Made by a program: the position numbers and the translations under genes
Shown: positions 9,229 to 55,277 of the stretch, piece after piece
Numbering within the stretch: position 1 is the first letter of the stretch
Layout of the letters: every line of letters starts with the position of its first letter
The notes under the pieces: model-generated
The model's database searches: none
What the model was told of the DNA's origin: nothing
What the model saw: only the letters and a program-made list of their open reading frames with translations
From: Isoetes taiwanensis
Taxonomy: Eukaryota; Streptophyta; Lycopodiopsida; Isoetales; Isoetaceae
Direction of reading: 5' to 3'
NCBI GenBank assembly: GCA_021234155.1
Contig: JAJEKV010000034.1
Location: 1,860,001-1,924,000, forward strand
DNA length: 64,000 nucleotides

Positions 9229-9233
9229 CCCAG

Positions 9234-9468
9234 TGTTGGAGATGCTACGTTGTCCTCCAATGCATACAAGTGTGTCATGCAGTGCATGCATGTCTGTGTC
9301 GTGCATGTTCTCAATGCATGCGCATGCGTGTGCATGCATGCAACCCAATGTATATATATAGTGTGATTCAATACAATGAATATAGTGTGTTGTTCTGGGA
9401 TCATCGCTTGTCTCTCTTTCGTCCTCTGTATCTCTCTTCCTTTGTATGCCTTGTCTAGGTTTTCATCA
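9234..9468 (+). repeat. 5' LTR of the copia element
   Basis: It starts TGTTGGAGATG and ends TTTTCATCA. It holds a run of GCATGC-type palindromes (9275-9345) followed by a TATATATA box at about 9352, a plausible promoter, and a CT-rich stretch before its end. Confidence 0.92.
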
Positions 9469-10652
9469 TGGTATCAGAGCTGCAGGTGATAACCGTGAAG
9501 GGCAATTCGTCAGCTAAAACAATTTATGTTTTTAACGGTACTGGATATCCTGGTTGGAAGAGGAAGATCAAATGTGTGTTAGAGAGTGATGATTTGCTTG
9601 ATTATGTAATTGGAAAAAAGGAGTGTCCCAAGCAACCAATGTTGAATGATCAATTGATTACTTCTGGACAAACTTTTGATACATGACTTAAAGAGGAGGA
9701 GCAATGGAAAACCAAAGATCGTGCAGCACGGCGTCTCTTAGTGTATGGATTGAAAGATTCTATCCATGCGGATGTTGATCAATTTATCACATCCAGTGAG
9801 GTCTGGAATTATTTAGAGCAGGTTTACAATAAGAGAACAAAGCAAGAAGTCCTTTTCTTGAAGAGGAGTTTGGCAAATCTCCAATATGATTCATCTAGTA
9901 CTGTTAGAGCTCATGTTGATCGCTTCAAAGAACTAATTGAACAATTAGCTGCTGCCGGAGCGCCTATATCCAAAGATGAATTGGTGATGCAGCTATTGGA
10001 AACTTTTCCATCCTCTGAATTCGGGGTCATCATTTCTATATTGATGAACAAGAAGCATGTTACTTTTGAAGACGCGTGTGAATCCTTAGAAGACCATGTG
10101 CGCCGAGTTATTGCACCCCCTGACGTCAAAGACACTGTAATGGTTGCAGATACAAGGAAAAGAAATCCACCTTCTGAGTCTTCTGAACAGAGAAAAAGAT
10201 TTCGGTCTTTTGGTCGTGGTTATGATGGATCCTTTGGTCGTGGTTATGGTCGTAGTTATGGTCGAGGTTATGATGGAGGATATGACCATGGGCGTGGGGG
10301 TTATGGTCGTAGTAGTGTGTATGGTCGCAGTGATTATCATGGTCGCCATGATTATAACACTTTTTGTCGTAGTGGATATGGACGTGGTCGTGGATCACGT
10401 GGATATCAATCTAGATATCAATCTATTGTGTGTGAATATTGTGGTCGTGATGGCCATGGCATTGCAAGATGCTTTGATAGAAAAGAGGATGAGAAACGAG
10501 ATATGGAAGCTAATTGTGTTAATACATCACGTGATGGTGAACAATATGGTGTGGAAAGAACAATTGGACATCCTGTACAAGCTAGTACAAATGTTTTAGG
10601 GAGTACCGACCACATGATGATAGATTCAGGTGTGCATCCTGCTCCCAAATAA
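9468..10652 (+). pseudogene. Copia Gag frame ending in three stops inside the intron
   Basis: The frame opens at the ATG over the LTR/PBS junction. It has the usual copia gag (UBN2-type) region: FNGTGYPGWKRKI, LLDYVIGKKE, then WNYLEQVYNKRTKQEVLFLK and LLETFPSSEF. A Gly/Arg/Tyr-rich stretch follows (10200-10420), then a CCHC zinc knuckle CEYCGRDGHGIARC at about 10430-10475. One TGA at 9684-9686 breaks the frame where a Trp codon would fit. After the protease start (MMIDSG) the unspliced frame meets TAA TAA TGA at 10650-10658. Gag forms the virus-like particle; this copy would give full Gag only if the TGA were read through or is a sequence error. Confidence 0.88.
9469..9480 (+). promoter_or_regulatory. 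Primer-binding site of the copia element
   Basis: TGGTATCAGAGC directly follows the LTR and is complementary to the 3' end of plant initiator tRNA-Met. The first ATG of the gag frame (9468-9470) uses the last base of the LTR and the first two bases of this site. Confidence 0.9.
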
Positions 10653-10927
10653 TAATGATGGTATTGTGTGTTAAGCAATGGTGTTGAGCTTTGTTATGGT
10701 GTTGGTCATGTGTGTATACATCATGTTCCTCATTCATGTGTTATTGTGTGTTGCACCATGGTGTCAACTTCTACATATAGTGTTGGAATTTATTTCTTAT
10801 ATATATTGTTGAGCATTGATATTGTGTGTGGTATTGAAATATTAAGTTCCTAACTTATAGTATTATCTTGAATTTATATGGTGTTGTCTAGCTATTATGT
10901 TTACAGCTTTGTGTAATTTTCATCTAG
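10630..10927 (+). promoter_or_regulatory. Spliceable intron inside the protease codons, with a triple stop
   Basis: The 5' site is CAG/GTGTGC at 10629/10630 and the 3' site TTTTCATCTAG/GTGC at 10927/10928. The segment is T-rich and has a CTAAC branch-point candidate near 10850. The left side reads Asp-Ser-Gly(first base) and the right side Gly(last two bases)-Ala-Thr-Gln-His, so removal gives the copia protease motif D-S-G-A-T in frame. Without removal, three stop codons follow after seven codons. The sites and frame are seen; use of the intron is inferred. This could set the Gag to Gag-Pol ratio, as spliced copia RNAs are known to do in other species by different layouts. Confidence 0.8.
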
Positions 10928-13900
10928 GTGCAACGCAACATATGGTATATGAGAAATCCTTGCTCAGAAATTACCATCCCTTGCGCGTTTTAAAATATGT
11001 TTATATGGGAGATGACAGTCGTCAACAAATTCTTGGTATTGGTGATCTACCATTACGAGCTCATTCAGGAATTCATTCTTTGCGTGGTGTTTTACATGTT
11101 CCTGCTTTACATCGTCATTTACTTTCTGTTTCTCGATTAACTGATGTTGGTATTCATATTTACTTTGATGAGTTATTTTGCTACCTTTTGAAAGATGGCT
11201 TAATACTTGGTAGTGGCATGCGCCATCACAATTTATATGAGTACCAAATTACAGATGGTCTAATCTATGCTCTTACTGCACGACATCCTGATGGAGATTT
11301 ATGGCATGGACGCTTTTGTCATGCCTCTTTTTCAGTCTTGTTGGACATGAAGCGACATGATGTCGTTAATGGCTTCTCGATGGATTCTCGGGCACTCTTG
11401 GCACCATGTGAGGCTTGTGTGCTTGGTAAGCCTTGTCGGCGTTCTTTTAATCATGTTGGACCTCGTGCATCTTCTATTTTGGAGTTGGTCCATATGGATC
11501 TTTGTGGACCATTGCCACGGTCCCTTGGTGGTGCCATATATTTTCTCTTAATCATTGATGATTACTCACGTTATTCTTTCATCTTTTCTCTTAAGAAGAA
11601 ATCTGATGTTTTCTCAACGTTCTGTAAATGGAAAGCAATGGTGGAATTGCAGATGGATGTGCCCTTAAAAAACATTCGCAGTGACAATGGTGGTGAATTT
11701 AAGAATCATGTATTTGACTCTTTTTGTACTAATGCTGGCATTCTGAGAGAATTTACAGTACCACATACACCACAGCATAATGGAGTGGCAGAACGTAAGA
11801 ACAGGACTGTCTTGAATGCTATTCGGAGTATGTTGCTTCATTCTGGTTTAAATACACAATTTTGGGCTGAAGCAGCGAGTACAGCCGTTTATGTTCAAAA
11901 TTGTATATCTTCTTCATCTGTTGCTGGTTTCACACCTTTTGAGATATGGTATTGCAAGAAGCCCACAGTAGCACATTTTAAGGTATTTGGATGTCAAGCC
12001 TATGCCTATATTCCTAAGGAGAAACGGAGTAAATTACAACCAGTTGCTCAAAAGGTTATCTTTTTAGGATATGCTGATAATGCACCAGCTTATCGACTGT
12101 TTGATTTGGTTTCTAAGAAAATTGTTCTATGCCGCTATAGAGATACTATTGTTAATGAAACTGTTATGGCCCAGTCTCCTTCGCCATCTGTTACTCACGA
12201 TATTCTATCAACTTTCCGAGAACACTATGATGACGATATTTTTGATGATCGTGCCATTGAAGAAGTCTCATTGTTGCCTGATATTTCGGATTTACCTGAT
12301 AGTGTTGGAGGAGAATATGAGGATATATCTGATCAATTACATGACAATATTATTTCGATGGATGATAATGTTCCTCAGCCACATGCAGAACCACCACATG
12401 CAGAACCATCTTTACAACCTCCTGAAGTTATGTCTCAGCAAGAGTTTCACACTTCTCGTGTTACTCGACGGCGTCCTCCGGTTACTTTGCGTGACTATTA
12501 TACTTTTGTCTCCATTACTGAACCTGTTACTATTCATGATGCTCTAAATTCTGATGAGCAGGAATATTGGAAACAAGCAATGGATGCTGAATATCACTCT
12601 TTGATAAGCAAAGGCACATGGGATTTAGTTGCCCTTCCTTCTGGTCGCAAACCTATTAAAAGTAAGTGGGTTTTCCGTGTTAAAACTAAAGCAGATGGTA
12701 CTTTTGACAGATTCAAAGCACGCTTAGTTGCGAAAGGGTTTTCTCAAATTGCTGGAATTGATTATCATGAGACCTTCTCGCCTGTGGTACGCCTTGCGAC
12801 TGTTCGCGCTTTGTTAGCATTTGCAGTCACCCATAATCTCTATGTTCATCAAATGGATGTTAAAACGGCCTTCCTCAATGGCGATCTTACAGAGGATATT
12901 TATATGGAACAACCCGATGGCTACAAGATTACAGGTCACACACCTATGGTTTGCAAGTTACGAAAAGCTTTATATGGTTTAAAACAAGCATCCCGTGCCT
13001 GGTATAAGAAAATGAATGCATTTTTTATTTCTGATGCTTACTTACCCACCACTGCAGACGCAAATCTCTATTACAAAAAAGTTGGTCCTGCATTTATCTT
13101 TATTGCGCTATATGTTGATGATACTATTCTAGTATCAAACAGTCTTGATTTTCTAGCTCAGTGTAAAAATAGTCTTGGCGCTGCATTTGACATGGTGGAT
13201 CTTGGTTCTATCAAATCTTGTCTTGGACTCCAAATTGAGCGTCACGATAATTGCATAAGATTGAGCCAACGAAAGTATATCTCTGAGTTACTTGACAAAT
13301 ATGATATGAGTAATGCTAAACCTCAGTCAACACCCTTGGGAGTTAACGTCAAATTGCTTTGAAACACATGTGTCCTCAAACGAAGGCGTCTTGACATGGC
13401 TCAATATCCATATGCAAATCTTATCGGTGCTTTAATGTACTTAGCACATGCCACCAGGCCAGATATCAGTTATGTTGTCAACACATTAGGACAATTTATG
13501 TCTAATCCAGGACGCCAACATTGGAATGCAGCCAAACGAGTTCTTCGTTATCTAAAAGGCACTATAGATCATGCTCGGTTTACGTTAGGTCAAGATATTG
13601 GTCCACAATTGGTTGGTTATCTTGGCCCGATTGGGGAGGTTGTCCTGATACTTCTCGCTCTACAAGTGGAGCATGTTTCTTTATGAATAATTCTTTAATC
13701 TCTTGGTATAGCAAGAAACAACATTGTGTTGCTGTGTCCACCACTGAAGCAGAATATGTTGCCGCTAGTATGGCAAGCAGAGAGTTGGTCTGGTTGCGAT
13801 GTCTTCTTCAATCTTTTCAACAAGTACTAAAAGGTCCGGCACTTTTACATTGTGACAATCAGAGTGCCATATCTTTAACTAAGGATGAGGTTTTCCATTC

Positions 13901-14084
13901 AAAGTCCAAGCATATTGATATTCATTATCATTACATTAAACTGGAAGTCAAGAAAAAGACAATTATGCTACAGTATTGTCCTACAGATAACATGATTGCG
14001 GATATCTTTACCAAAGCTTTACCTATGACAAAGCATGCAGATTTTACCACTCAGTTGCGGATCCTCCCTTCGTCTTCTACTTGA
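10928..14084 (+). pseudogene. Copia Pol: protease, integrase, reverse transcriptase, RNase H
   Basis: After the intron the frame is open to 13362. It has the protease continuation GATQHM; the integrase HHCC finger (HGRFCH, then CEACVLGKPC) and D-D-E core (LVHMDLCGPL, IRSDNGGEF, NGVAERKNRT); and RT (KSKWVFRVKTKADG, MDVKTAFLNGDL, YVDDTILV at about 13110). A TGA at 13360-13362 sits in a local frame slip that ends before 13396. A second slip at about 13620 falls where YSDADWGG is expected. The RNase H end (STTEAEYVAA, HCDNQSAI, KHIDIHYHYI, DIFTKALP) is in the next frame to 14084. Otherwise the protein is full length for a copia Pol. Confidence 0.92.
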
Positions 14085-14257
14085 TAGATACTTTTTTGAA
14101 GGGTGCCACGGTTTTTCCTTTTGCTTCCCACAAAAGGTTTTTTTAACCCGGGCACATGACCAAGGCTGCAAGGGGGGATGCATGTGCATCCTTGGTCGCC
14201 TTCTGAGTATTTGAATCACATATACTTTGGTTTCTTTCATTGAGAGACCAACGTTGC

Positions 14258-14266
14258 AGGGGGGGG
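14258..14266 (+). promoter_or_regulatory. Polypurine tract of the copia element
   Basis: AGGGGGGGG directly before the 3' LTR, the plus-strand priming site. Confidence 0.8.
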
Positions 14267-14501
14267 TGTTGGAGATGCTACGTTGTCCTCCAATGCATAC
14301 AAGTGTGTCATGCAGTGCATGCATGTCTGTGTCGTGCATGTTCTCAATGCATGCGCATGCGTGTGCATGCATGCAACCCAATGTATATATATAGTGTGAT
14401 TCAATACAATGAATATAGTGTGTTGTTCTGGGATCATCGCTTGTCTCTCTTTCGTCCTCTGTATCTCTCTTCCTTTGTATGCCTTGTCTAGGTTTTCATC
14501 A
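14267..14501 (+). repeat. 3' LTR of the copia element
   Basis: By eye, base-for-base the same as 9234-9468, followed by the CCCAG duplication. Confidence 0.92.
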
Positions 14502-14506
14502 CCCAG

Positions 14507-14975: not shown

Positions 14976-15694
14976 CGTAATGCACACCTAGCAGAATTAC
15001 GAACAGAAAAAATTTGCTGAACGGAGGAGAACAGAGGACCGAAACGGCTATGGCAGAAACTTTTCCCTTCAATAGAGGACCGGATTGGCTATGGAAGAAA
15101 CTTTTCGCTTGAATGGAGGGCCGGATTGGCTATGGCAGAAACTTTTCCCTTGAATGGCTATGCCTAAAAAAAACTGGGTGTCATTGCAGGCCGGAACGCT
15201 TCAGAAATGCCATTGCTACCCTAGATCTACGCTTCTATCTGCCAAAATGCTTCTATCATCGCCATCGGAGCTTCTAATGCATGCATATAACAGGGGGAAA
15301 ATGCAGGAACATGGAATCGAAGGCATGGAATGTCACATAAAAGAAACGAAAGTTAAGAAACAGATTCGCAAAGAAACCTCTGGCTTTCCTAAATGAAGTT
15401 CTCCGGTTGCTCTCTGGCTCTCCGCTATTCAAACTGCTCTACTTCAAACATCCGGCAAGAGTGCATCACTTTGGTTTGCTCTCCTTAGCTATGCTGGCTT
15501 CAGAAGAAGAGATTTGAAGGAAGGGTCGCCAGAAGAGCTGATCCGCCATAGTCCGCCATAGCCACAGTTCTGATCCGCCATAGTCCGCCATAGCCACAAA
15601 ATACTGGCGGCGCCGCTATACACAGGCGGAGAGAGAATTGCGGGGTATAAAATCAGCAGAAAAATGCAGTAATTCTGCCTAGGTGTGCATTACG
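14976..15694. mobile_element. Small non-autonomous TIR element (MITE-like)
   Basis: The ends are near-perfect inverted repeats of about 25 bp: CGTAATGCACACCTAG at 14976 and CTAGGTGTGCATTACG ending at 15694, both continuing inward into AGAATTAC/GTAATTCT. The 719-bp interior has about three copies of a 42-bp unit (GGACCGGATTGGCTATGG type, 15030-15160) and a 30-bp unit repeated twice with CCGCCATAG motifs (15540-15600). No coding is recognised and no target duplication is obvious. Confidence 0.6.
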
Positions 15695-52682: not shown

Positions 52683-53528
52683 CATGTCCTATGCACTAAC
52701 CGAAGTGAAAATTTTCAGTTTCGAATCGAGAGATTGCTCAACATTGCATCTTCTACACAATTTCATAAACATTGTTAATCTCCCAAGATGTGGTGCATGC
52801 ATCATGAGGAAGGGGTTGTAAGTAACAAATGCAAGGCATGTGACAACTACTCTACATGATTTAGAATAAATACAAAGGCAATTAAGAGTAACAATAAACA
52901 ATGTCAAACAAAAGCATGAGCATAAGCCCTAATTATGAAACTAGCTTTCAACAAATAAATTTTCAAATTAAAACCGAGCTGCTACACCAAATCTAGCGGA
53001 GCCACAAAATTTAGGGGCAGCCAAATGTGGCAAAACGCCCAAATGCACAGGAATCTGGCCGTTGGAGCCTTGAATACTCTGCGCAGAAAAAAAATATGTT
53101 GTTTCTATCTGTTCTGTTCTTCGCAGATTACTGATTAATTTTGAGCTCCATGCGCACAGTACACCTCTGTTTAATCTGGCGCACCAAAAAGGATTCTCTG
53201 TTTTGATCCAATATTAGAAAAGGTTCGAGCTCGATTTCGATTGGGTTGTTTTTTTTTTCTTATTCTGTTCTTCCCTGATTACGGGTTCTGATCTGTGAAT
53301 AGAAATATGTATTTGGGCACTGTGTAATCCGGTTCGAAAGGCGCAGAAAAAACGAATTCTTTTGTTTTGATGCAGTGATAGCAAAGGTAAGAGGGTTAAT
53401 TCGTTTGGATTGAAATGGGATTTTTTCTGAAATTGGATTTTGTTCTGAAGAAACTTTTTTTGCTGCAGAGGTTCACAGAATCTAGGTTTGATGAAGCAGC
53501 ATTAGAAGAGGATTGATCGGAAGAAGAG
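52683..53528 (+). promoter_or_regulatory. Upstream region of the glutaredoxin-like gene
   Basis: Non-coding. It probably holds the promoter and 5' leader. CT-rich stretches with TTTTTTTTTCTTATTCTG lie at 53250-53275. I cannot fix a transcription start. Confidence 0.4.
53387..53468 (+). other. Possible 5'-leader intron
   Basis: AAAG/GTAAGAGG at 53386/53387 and TTTTTTTGCTGCAG/AGG at 53468/53469 are good splice sites 82 bases apart and 60 bases before the start codon. Use is unproven. Confidence 0.4.
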
Positions 53529-55277
53529 ATGGGGTGTGCATCTTCGAAGGTAATGCATATGCAGGCAGAAAAAGAGGGATGGATCGAAGTTTCAGAGCCC
53601 AGAAAAAGTGTAGCAGAAGAACAGAGCTCCGGATCCAGAAAGAGGGCATTTTGCGATCACAGAGTAGCTCTAACATCAAGCACATACGGCATCCTAGATC
53701 CCCCAAAAGAAATCGCCCAAGATCATGCCTCCCTTTCCGGCCCCAGAATTTCAATCTCCACCGATCCAAGCAGCAGAATTCTTCGCCTCCGATCAAAGGA
53801 AGAACTGGGCTGTTCTGATGCGAGCTGTGTCACTTCCAGAAATTATCATCTCGAAGAAGGCCATAGCCGGATTTCCTTAGCAGAAAATACCGAAGTGATT
53901 AATACTTGGGAGCTTATGGAAGGATTAGAAGAAGAAACGGGCCTCTGTTATTCTAATCCGGCTTCTTCTCCGCCCAAAAAGCTTCTTAAATCCGTTTCTC
54001 TTCCGGCGCATCGGGGATCGGCCCTCTGTATTATTTCTGCAGAGAACACCCCTGCCGGATTTCATATCTATGTCAAGGATATGCATTCTTCTAATGTCAG
54101 CCTTGCAGCAGATAAGGAAAATGTTCGGCCCCCGAATGCTTCCACCGGAAAGATGGTTTCTGTGCAAGCAAGAAGAAAAAAAGGGCCGCTTCTCAGAGCT
54201 CCGGCGAGGAATTTTAGCTTGGCTATGGCGGAAAAGGAAAATTCTTCCAGTGTTCTATCCCCCTGCGCTGATTCTTTAGTGGGTTCTTCCCAAACTCCGA
54301 AGAAAAATTCATGTGGGTGCTCCAGAATTTGCTCAGAAAGGGAAGAATTTGAATCTAAAATCCCTTCTAAGGTTGAATCTCCTTGCAGTCCTGTTCTGAA
54401 TCGAAAAGGAAGCGCGAAACGGAGCCTTCCAGATGGGCCTGTGCCTTGCGGGAAGATGATCCGGACAAATGCTTCCGATTCTAATAATCCTGGCTATGGC
54501 AGAAATCCGAGCTCCAGAAATTATTTCGATCCCGAGCTCATAGCCACAATTGAAAGGGCTTTTGAACAGATCACAGAAGAGGAATGGGATTTTAAGGATT
54601 CCCAGACAAATTCTGGTACTAAATCTGTCCAGATAAGTCCGGCGAGGACACAGAGCATCAAATCGGACAAGGGGGATGCAGAATCGAAGGGCAACAAGAT
54701 ACCCAATTCATCCAAAGGTGCAAATTTGGCAAGAACAGAGGCGAAAGGAGATGATCAGAAAATTTCTGCAAGGATTGGAAAAGAATTTGAAGATCCGTTT
54801 GAAGGATTCAAATATCTGTGCCCTCCGGGAGGGGAAGAAAAGGTTGTGATTTATTACACAAGCTTAAGAGGGATCAGAAAAACGTATGAAGAATGCAACG
54901 AGCTGCTCACTCTGATCCGGAGCTTCCATATCCAGATTGACGAGCGGGATATTTCGATGCATTCGGGATTCAGGCAGGAATTAAAGGATCTGGCAGGGAT
55001 TGATTGCTCGGTGCCCAGATTATTCATAAAAGGGCGATATATTGGCGGATTGACAGAGGCTGCAATTCTCCACGACGACGGAAAGCTTGGAAATTTGATC
55101 CGAGGAATCGCCCCAGAAGACCCCTTTAAGATCTGCGATGGCTGTGGCGGTGCCAGATTCATCCTTTGCCTTGATTGCAGCGGCAGCTGCAAAATCAGAC
55201 CCCAAAATGGCGATCTTCAAGAGCGCTGCTCTGAATGCAACGAAAATGGGCTCGTCAGATGCCCCATTTGCTGCTAA
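53529..55277 (+). CDS. Glutaredoxin-like protein with C-terminal Cys-rich zinc-finger-like region (intronless)
   Basis: 582 codons from ATG 53529 to TAA 55277 without introns. It starts MGCASSK, a strong N-myristoylation signal with a Cys for palmitoylation, so the protein may sit at the plasma membrane. Residues about 8-430 are Ser-rich and low in structure. Residues about 438-525 form a glutaredoxin fold: VVIYYTSLRGIRKTYEEC, DERDISMHSGFRQELKDL, the cis-Pro region CSVPRLFIKGRYIGG. The usual CPYC active site is replaced by SLRG, as known for this plant family. Residues about 536-582 carry four paired Cys motifs: CDGCGG, CLDCSGSC, CSECNENG and CPICC. This matches the Arabidopsis family of At5g39865/At3g28850. 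Function in the family is poorly known. No oxidoreductase activity should be assumed. It looks intact and is probably the only functional gene here. Confidence 0.92.
   Translation: MGCASSKVMHMQAEKEGWIEVSEPRKSVAEEQSSGSRKRAFCDHRVALTSSTYGILDPPKEIAQDHASLSGPRISISTDPSSRILRLRSKEELGCSDASCVTSRNYHLEEGHSRISLAENTEVINTWELMEGLEEETGLCYSNPASSPPKKLLKSVSLPAHRGSALCIISAENTPAGFHIYVKDMHSSNVSLAADKENVRPPNASTGKMVSVQARRKKGPLLRAPARNFSLAMAEKENSSSVLSPCADSLVGSSQTPKKNSCGCSRICSEREEFESKIPSKVESPCSPVLNRKGSAKRSLPDGPVPCGKMIRTNASDSNNPGYGRNPSSRNYFDPELIATIERAFEQITEEEWDFKDSQTNSGTKSVQISPARTQSIKSDKGDAESKGNKIPNSSKGANLARTEAKGDDQKISARIGKEFEDPFEGFKYLCPPGGEEKVVIYYTSLRGIRKTYEECNELLTLIRSFHIQIDERDISMHSGFRQELKDLAGIDCSVPRLFIKGRYIGGLTEAAILHDDGKLGNLIRGIAPEDPFKICDGCGGARFILCLDCSGSCKIRPQNGDLQERCSECNENGLVRCPICC

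Follow-up and report, generated by a model that had tools for sequence, protein, structure and literature searches.

The window analysed here is a 64,000-nt stretch of the Isoetes taiwanensis genome (contig JAJEKV010000034.1, positions 1,860,001 to 1,924,000). It contains a copia retrotransposon with long terminal repeats (LTRs), whose protease active site is interrupted by a segment bounded by splice signals. This segment is probably a facultative spliceosomal intron that forms a fixed part of a copia lineage, with unspliced RNA predicted to serve both for Gag synthesis and as the genome, and spliced RNA predicted to yield Gag-Pol. The element comprises the following features.

9234-14501, + strand: whole copia LTR retrotransposon, recognised from its LTRs, target duplication, and domain content
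9229-9233, + strand: 5' target-site duplication CCCAG, equal to 14502-14506
9234-9468, + strand: 5' LTR of 235 bp, TGTTGG...CATCA, with 0/235 substitutions relative to the 3' LTR
9469-9480, + strand: primer-binding site TGGTATCAGAGC, directly after the 5' LTR
9468-10629, + strand: exon 1, gag with a zinc knuckle, ending at the first base of the split glycine codon of the protease DSG motif
10630-10652, + strand: start of the retained intron, read as the Gag tail VHPAPK and a stop
10630-10927, + strand: GT-AG intron of 298 nt, 44% T, with a branch-like CTAAC at 10850
10928-14084, + strand: exon 2, the remainder of the protease (ATQHM...), integrase, reverse transcriptase, and RNase H
14267-14501, + strand: 3' LTR, identical to the 5' LTR
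14502-14506, + strand: 3' target-site duplication CCCAG

The LTRs, primer site, and target duplication characteristic of LTR retrotransposons are thus all present, and the primer site is presumably of the initiator tRNA-Met type. Pfam assigns Retrotran_gag_2 upstream of the intron and Pol_BBD, gag_pre-integrs, rve, SH3_retrovirus, and RVT_2 downstream of it. This order of Gag, protease, integrase, and reverse transcriptase, together with the copia-type RVT_2, places the element in the Ty1/copia superfamily. RNase H was assigned from the likeness of the later frames to a database protein, P0001.

Exon 1 ends in ...ATAGATTCAG at 10629, and exon 2 starts with GTGCAACGCAACATATG at 10928. The segment between them runs from GTGTGC to TTTCATCTAG, its length is 1 mod 3, and it splits the glycine codon of DSG/ATQHM. 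The joined exons read D-S-G-A-T-Q-H-M; when the intron is kept, the frame continues as V-H-P-A-P-K and then meets TAA TAA TGA, so that the Gag open reading frame (ORF) extends over 9687-10652. The first-pass annotation had claimed this restoration of the protease motif, seven extra codons before the triple stop, and a CTAAC near 10850. All three hold: the stop lies six residues past the DSG glycine, or seven including the glycine, and CTAAC begins at 10850. The exactness that it ascribed to the frame logic was also borne out, since among 120 GT/AG pairs around the interval, 51 keep an open frame and exactly one restores the motif. The same test in a relative outside this genome (L001, described below) gave one restoring pair out of 80, with 25 open. 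The position of the segment and its frame logic are therefore established.

The segment has the sequence features of a GT-AG intron, namely GT-AG ends, a branch-like motif, and a T-rich interior (44% T versus 32% in the exons), with a weak donor context and a distant branch-like motif. A weak donor would suit partial splicing, although it is no proof of it. No repeat copies of the intron were found elsewhere within the window, an Rfam scan gave no match at the gathering score, and scans of viral contigs gave no useful match. The 5-bp sequence AGGTG is present at both donor and acceptor and thus flanks the segment.

Sister copies were sought in the host assembly (1,658,258,908 bases in 1110 contigs). 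A search with a 601-nt query yielded 47 matches, and 40 of 97 candidates were scored; the resulting counts are lower bounds. Thirty loci of the window family (family A), including the window's own locus, were fetched from the best of the 47 matches. The acceptor TAG/GTGCA is kept in all 30, and the donor GTGTGCATC in 29, the remaining locus being cut short at the donor end. Eighteen of the 30 loci preserve GATTCAG/GTGTGCATC without change, and in all 18 the intron-kept frame stops at the same codon. Intron lengths in the family range from 280 to 302 nt. Seven loci (L020, L022, L026, L031, L032, L034, and L039) share a lost base beside the donor along with CCTGC to CCCGC-type changes, for which a subfamily and long-read assembly error could not be told apart. 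Locus L048 (G000:C1068:5194300-5196900) consists of two inverted, foldback-like element pieces with a common 150-nt deletion internal to the intron.

A second family (family B) of the same genome was read at seven loci. Six carry the donor GATTCAG/GTGTGC and the acceptor CATAG/GTGCTAC at the same place; the seventh is without the donor side, and one of the six (L045) retains only the last 26 nt of exon 1. When the intron is kept, the Gag tail is VHHVPSK. The introns measure 315, 297, 293, 297, 233, and 268 nt, corresponding to 0, 0, 2, 0, 2, and 1 mod 3. Such freedom of length from frame fits a removed intron rather than recoding, and recoding or readthrough was rejected because the lengths differ mod 3. 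The variation arises mainly from a variable A-rich tract, and the family-B intron is A-rich and not T-rich, unlike that of the window. In L041-L047, this tract is long, GAAAAA-like on the sense strand, and very variable in length.

The third DNA lineage, L001, is a 6110-base contig in a metagenome-assembled genome labelled Trichormus (cyanobacterial; G001), and is presumably plant DNA in that bin. Trichormus/Nostoc azollae is a symbiont of Azolla ferns, and the plant source may be Azolla. L001 has an intact Gag frame ending in DSGVFQAPK, a 391-nt intron with a CTGAT motif 20 nt before its end, and an open pol frame of 1053 aa. A Gag protein, P0122, ends in DSGVFQAPK as well and is 99% identical to L001 Gag. 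A fourth lineage is known only as protein: Gag P0121 ends in DSGIHHDPK and is intact to that stop. Consequently, three DNA lineages share both splice sites and the early Gag stop, and P0121 has the early stop as well. A short tail ending in Pro-Lys or Pro-Ser-Lys before that stop is common to all four (VHPAPK, VHHVPSK, VFQAPK, and IHHDPK). The search of related copies proposed in the first-pass annotation thus establishes recurrence across several lineages.

These sister copies also bear on an insertion origin, in which a short mobile element would have entered once, duplicated an AGGTG target, and simply left a broken copy. The flanking AGGTG repeat is what such an event would leave, yet the segment lies at the same position in 29 family-A loci, six family-B loci, and L001, its interiors are unrelated between lineages, and its internal sequence has no match elsewhere in the window. 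An insertion unique to one copy, named beforehand as the outcome that would overturn the intron interpretation, is refuted by the sister copies, and this origin as a whole is exceedingly improbable.

Another possibility is that there is no splicing and that the element has two ORFs, with Pol produced by recoding or internal initiation. The pol frame is indeed open 5' of the acceptor, from 10861 in the window and from 1699 in L001. However, the relative frame of Gag and Pol differs among copies (0, 1, and 2 mod 3) with stops between them, so that no single frameshift works. A separately started Pol would also be without the catalytic DSG, and both halves of the motif are kept exactly at the GT-AG boundaries. 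This arrangement is accordingly considered very unlikely.

The nearest relatives provide an evolutionary frame for the intron. Among the matches listed, the closest pol protein is P0001, which matches L001, is without gag, and begins just past the junction. The nearest relative outside the intron clade, P0002 (46% identity over the searched part of pol), is a continuous 1413-aa Gag-Pol with IIDSGATGNM and no intron. A tree of 28 rows groups the window with P0001 (100/100) and places P0002 as sister to that clade (100/99); the protein-search rows were picked for length and a DSG motif, which favours continuous outgroups and says nothing on how frequent interruption is. The search found 1041 pol relatives; among the 120 listed, 109 have a DSG-type motif in continuous frame, the pattern being loose enough to include a few chance matches. 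Most simply, the intron would have been gained on the branch to the clade of the window and P0001. Synonymous divergence is approximately 1.0-1.2 between L001 and the Isoetes family, and 0.8 (100 pol codons) or 0.5 (96 gag codons) between families A and B. The value for L001 is thus near that found between two families within one genome and is low for the lycophyte-fern split; horizontal transfer is a possible cause.

Both exons are under purifying selection as protein. The ratio of nonsynonymous to synonymous divergence (dN/dS) is 0.218 for gag between family A and L001 (301 codons), 0.134 for pol between the same two (798 codons), and 0.039 for pol between families A and B (100 codons); pol values for A/B and B/L001 spanning a frameshift in L043 were excluded. 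Between lineages, the alignment of intron interiors does not exceed that of shuffled sequence, while at the intron start 15-18 of 24 nucleotides agree. The intron therefore keeps mainly its start and its splice signals.

The lack of conservation of intron interiors between families would also be expected of an intron that is real and has no regulatory role. Particle Gag would then come from processed Gag-Pol, and the intron would persist through poor packaging of spliced RNA or because loss is rare; retained introns are, moreover, common in plants. Such an intron does not account for the early stop and the short Pro-Lys or Pro-Ser-Lys tail in all four lineages, nor for a Gag frame that is intact up to that stop in L001 and P0121. 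LTR elements also need a large excess of Gag, according to the accessible part of PMC12786077. An intron without a role is consequently regarded as unlikely.

The genomic copy had been expected to arise from unspliced RNA, and the spread of intron-bearing copies supports this. Twenty regions were fetched. Eight of them, with both LTRs delimited, were measured together with the window (n = 9); ten have one or no recognised LTR, and two (L052 and L060, with two fragmentary LTRs each) were dropped. Seven of the nine copies have exact, private 5-bp target duplications, an eighth matches in four of five letters, and in the ninth one bound is unreliable. The counts of LTR substitutions, with gap columns in brackets, amount to 0/235 (0) in the window and to 0/227 (2), 0/225 (0), and 0/229 (94, an insert in one LTR) in three others, followed by 2/223 (5), 3/207 (6), 11/221 (14), and 18/226 (6). 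In L055, the 3' LTR bound is unreliable, and 62/210 is not taken as an age. Donor and acceptor are kept in all nine copies, four of which have LTRs without substitution. Intron-containing RNA has therefore been a repeatedly and recently reverse-transcribed template.

If spliced RNA were also copied, intronless copies should be recognisable from the joined motif. A DSGATQHM pattern with at most one mismatch occurs at 183 places in the host genome (control 0). The listing of 100 of these includes 98 exact matches, none of which has the joined letters of the window family. A longer pattern for families A and B, consisting of 33 letters with ATQHMV[FY]E-type codons and at most two mismatches (control 0), occurs at two places in 1.66 Gb; it misses L001-type joined copies and copies with more than two changes. 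One of the two, the family-B copy L069, is without the intron exactly at the predicted sites and reads GATTCAG/GTGCTACTCAACACATGG in frame. Its identity to the intron-bearing family-B copies is 93.6-96.6% past the junction (all six copies) and 90.8-95.4%, with gaps, before it (five of the six). The other place (C909) proved to be a truncated intron-bearing piece, and the longer pattern revealed no second exactly intronless copy of families A or B in 1.66 Gb. Flanks were read for four of the 100 listed DSGATQHM places, namely L069 and three others. L070 and L071 carry the motif letters of a spliced L001 junction but belong to an unrelated copia family (~30% identity), and L072, from a sister-type family (44-49%), has an uninterrupted motif, preceded farther 5' by stop codons.

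Several observations weigh against the proposed intron and its role. The window donor fits just six of nine U1 positions (seven of nine in L001), and CTAAC starts 78 nt before the end of the segment, far from the acceptor. Among the 29 family-A loci with both sites, 11 differ slightly next to the donor or immediately 5' of it, and several of these would not join in frame, although some of the indels may be assembly errors. In exon 2, the 99 codons that follow the junction contain three stops in each of two family-B copies (L045 and L047) and none in the other four. Over the final 96 codons of gag, the comparison of families A and B indicates much weaker selection (dN/dS 0.544). The window copy is itself defective, with a nonsense codon in gag (9684-9686), another in pol (13360-13362), and a pol frameshift at ~13.6 kb (about 13620); the mechanism therefore belongs to the family and not to the window copy. 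Finally, L069 is 5'-truncated, beginning 672 nt upstream of the junction, and has an insert in pol. The window LTR (the query was the window's and not that of family B) has no match in the flanks of L069 that were read. Donor and acceptor share AGGTG, and a repeat-mediated deletion would leave the junction of L069 too.

Such a deletion between the AGGTG repeats would make L069 uninformative on splicing. The junctions would be identical, two nearby pieces on one contig share another intron-internal deletion, and L069 is truncated, with no recognised LTRs; its likeness to the pre-LTR region of the window breaks off before the LTR. On the other hand, AGGTG is one of 12 repeats of at least 5 bp when 60 nt around the two sites are compared, and one of 51 when 100 nt are; several of these repeats are longer. 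The junction found is exactly the one expected from splicing. A deletion is thus a possible but less probable origin, and L069 may be taken as moderate evidence for splicing.

For the facultative intron, the following mechanism is proposed. Intron-retaining RNA would be translated to Gag, stopping six or seven residues past the protease DSG, and the same RNA would be reverse-transcribed as the genome. Removal of the intron would create a continuous Gag-Pol, and only then would the protease active site be complete. Partial splicing would set the ratio of Gag to Gag-Pol and would keep protease and Pol off the genomic RNA. A copy made from spliced RNA could no longer produce Gag alone, and intronless copies may be rare for this reason. 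Splicing in vivo, to which L069 points, would thus affect a share of the transcripts, with the ratio as its presumed function. A broader formulation is favoured by a narrow margin: a copia lineage of seed-free plants would gate its protease by splicing through a split glycine codon, an active protease or Pol could never be encoded by genomic RNA, only spliced, replication-excluded RNA would arm the particle, and the arrangement would outlast the divergence of families.

Among known systems, some copia elements rely on splicing to express Gag separately from Pol. In Drosophila copia, spliced RNA makes Gag only. The same holds for EVD, where unspliced RNA gives Gag-Pol (PMC8892269, accessible part), and BARE is described as the only demonstrated case of copia splicing besides copia itself, again in the Gag direction (PMC3735527, 2013, accessible part). 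The window element is the reverse of Drosophila copia, EVD, and BARE1, since joining opens Gag-Pol and retention closes it; continuous copia elements of the P0002 type differ in being without an intron. Greater likeness is found in Ogre, a Ty3/gypsy element of pea and Medicago, whose inter-ORF region is an intron removed from a subset of transcripts, permitting the whole polyprotein (PMC6317226, accessible part); its unspliced RNA would make the first part alone. In both cases, stops lie within the intron and its removal links the first ORF with the remainder of pol, which in the present element is a prediction read from DNA. However, the window element has the copia order, with integrase before reverse transcriptase, rather than that of Ty3/gypsy, and its intron splits an active-site codon of the protease. 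Bianca, according to the same source, is a Ty1/copia lineage with separated ORFs (two, with a mean separation of 172 bp) and a half tRNA-Ile primer site, in place of which the window has TGGTATCAGAGC; the accessible part of PMC6317226 makes no mention of splicing or of the position of the gap in Bianca. The intron and its direction, with unspliced RNA for Gag and spliced RNA for Gag-Pol, thus remain well supported by sequence, but the novelty claimed in the first-pass annotation was overstated. As far as these accessible texts go, the direction is known from Ogre and suggested for Bianca, and so cannot count as new among plant LTR elements. No description of an intron inside a copia protease was found in the literature searched, in which subscription journals are thinly covered.

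A retroelement that keeps an intron its own life cycle should delete poses a sharp question, which becomes countable here: in one genome, 35 loci with both sites (29 of the window family and six of family B) and a single exactly intronless copy were found. The results suggest that copia elements, too, use splicing to make Pol, as described for the Ogre group of gypsy elements, and that the cut here falls inside the protease active site. If this is true, each transposition via spliced RNA would erase the intron, and yet the arrangement has survived while several families diverged. A further caution is that such families would be classed as broken by annotation pipelines.

Some further features of the element and its surroundings deserve mention. 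The LTRs of the window element are identical although gag and pol are broken; possible causes are mobilisation by other copies or, for some of the changes, assembly errors. The gag ATG (9468-9470) straddles the border between LTR and primer site, as CATC-ATG-GTATCAGAG (window 9464-9480), and L001 shows the same arrangement at 161-177, as CAAC-ATG-GTATCAGAG. Gag starts with MVSE, with no leader separating the primer site from the coding region, and P0121 likewise starts with MVSE. Just 3' of the element, three 41-bp tandem units (GAGGACCGGATTGGCTATGGCAGAAACTTTTCCCTTGAATG) lie at 15034-15157. Elsewhere in the window, a 586-aa open frame at 53517-55277 has relatives with a glutaredoxin domain, its best matches being lycophyte proteins, and the two best matches of a window gene are named proteins of Selaginella and Diphasiastrum.

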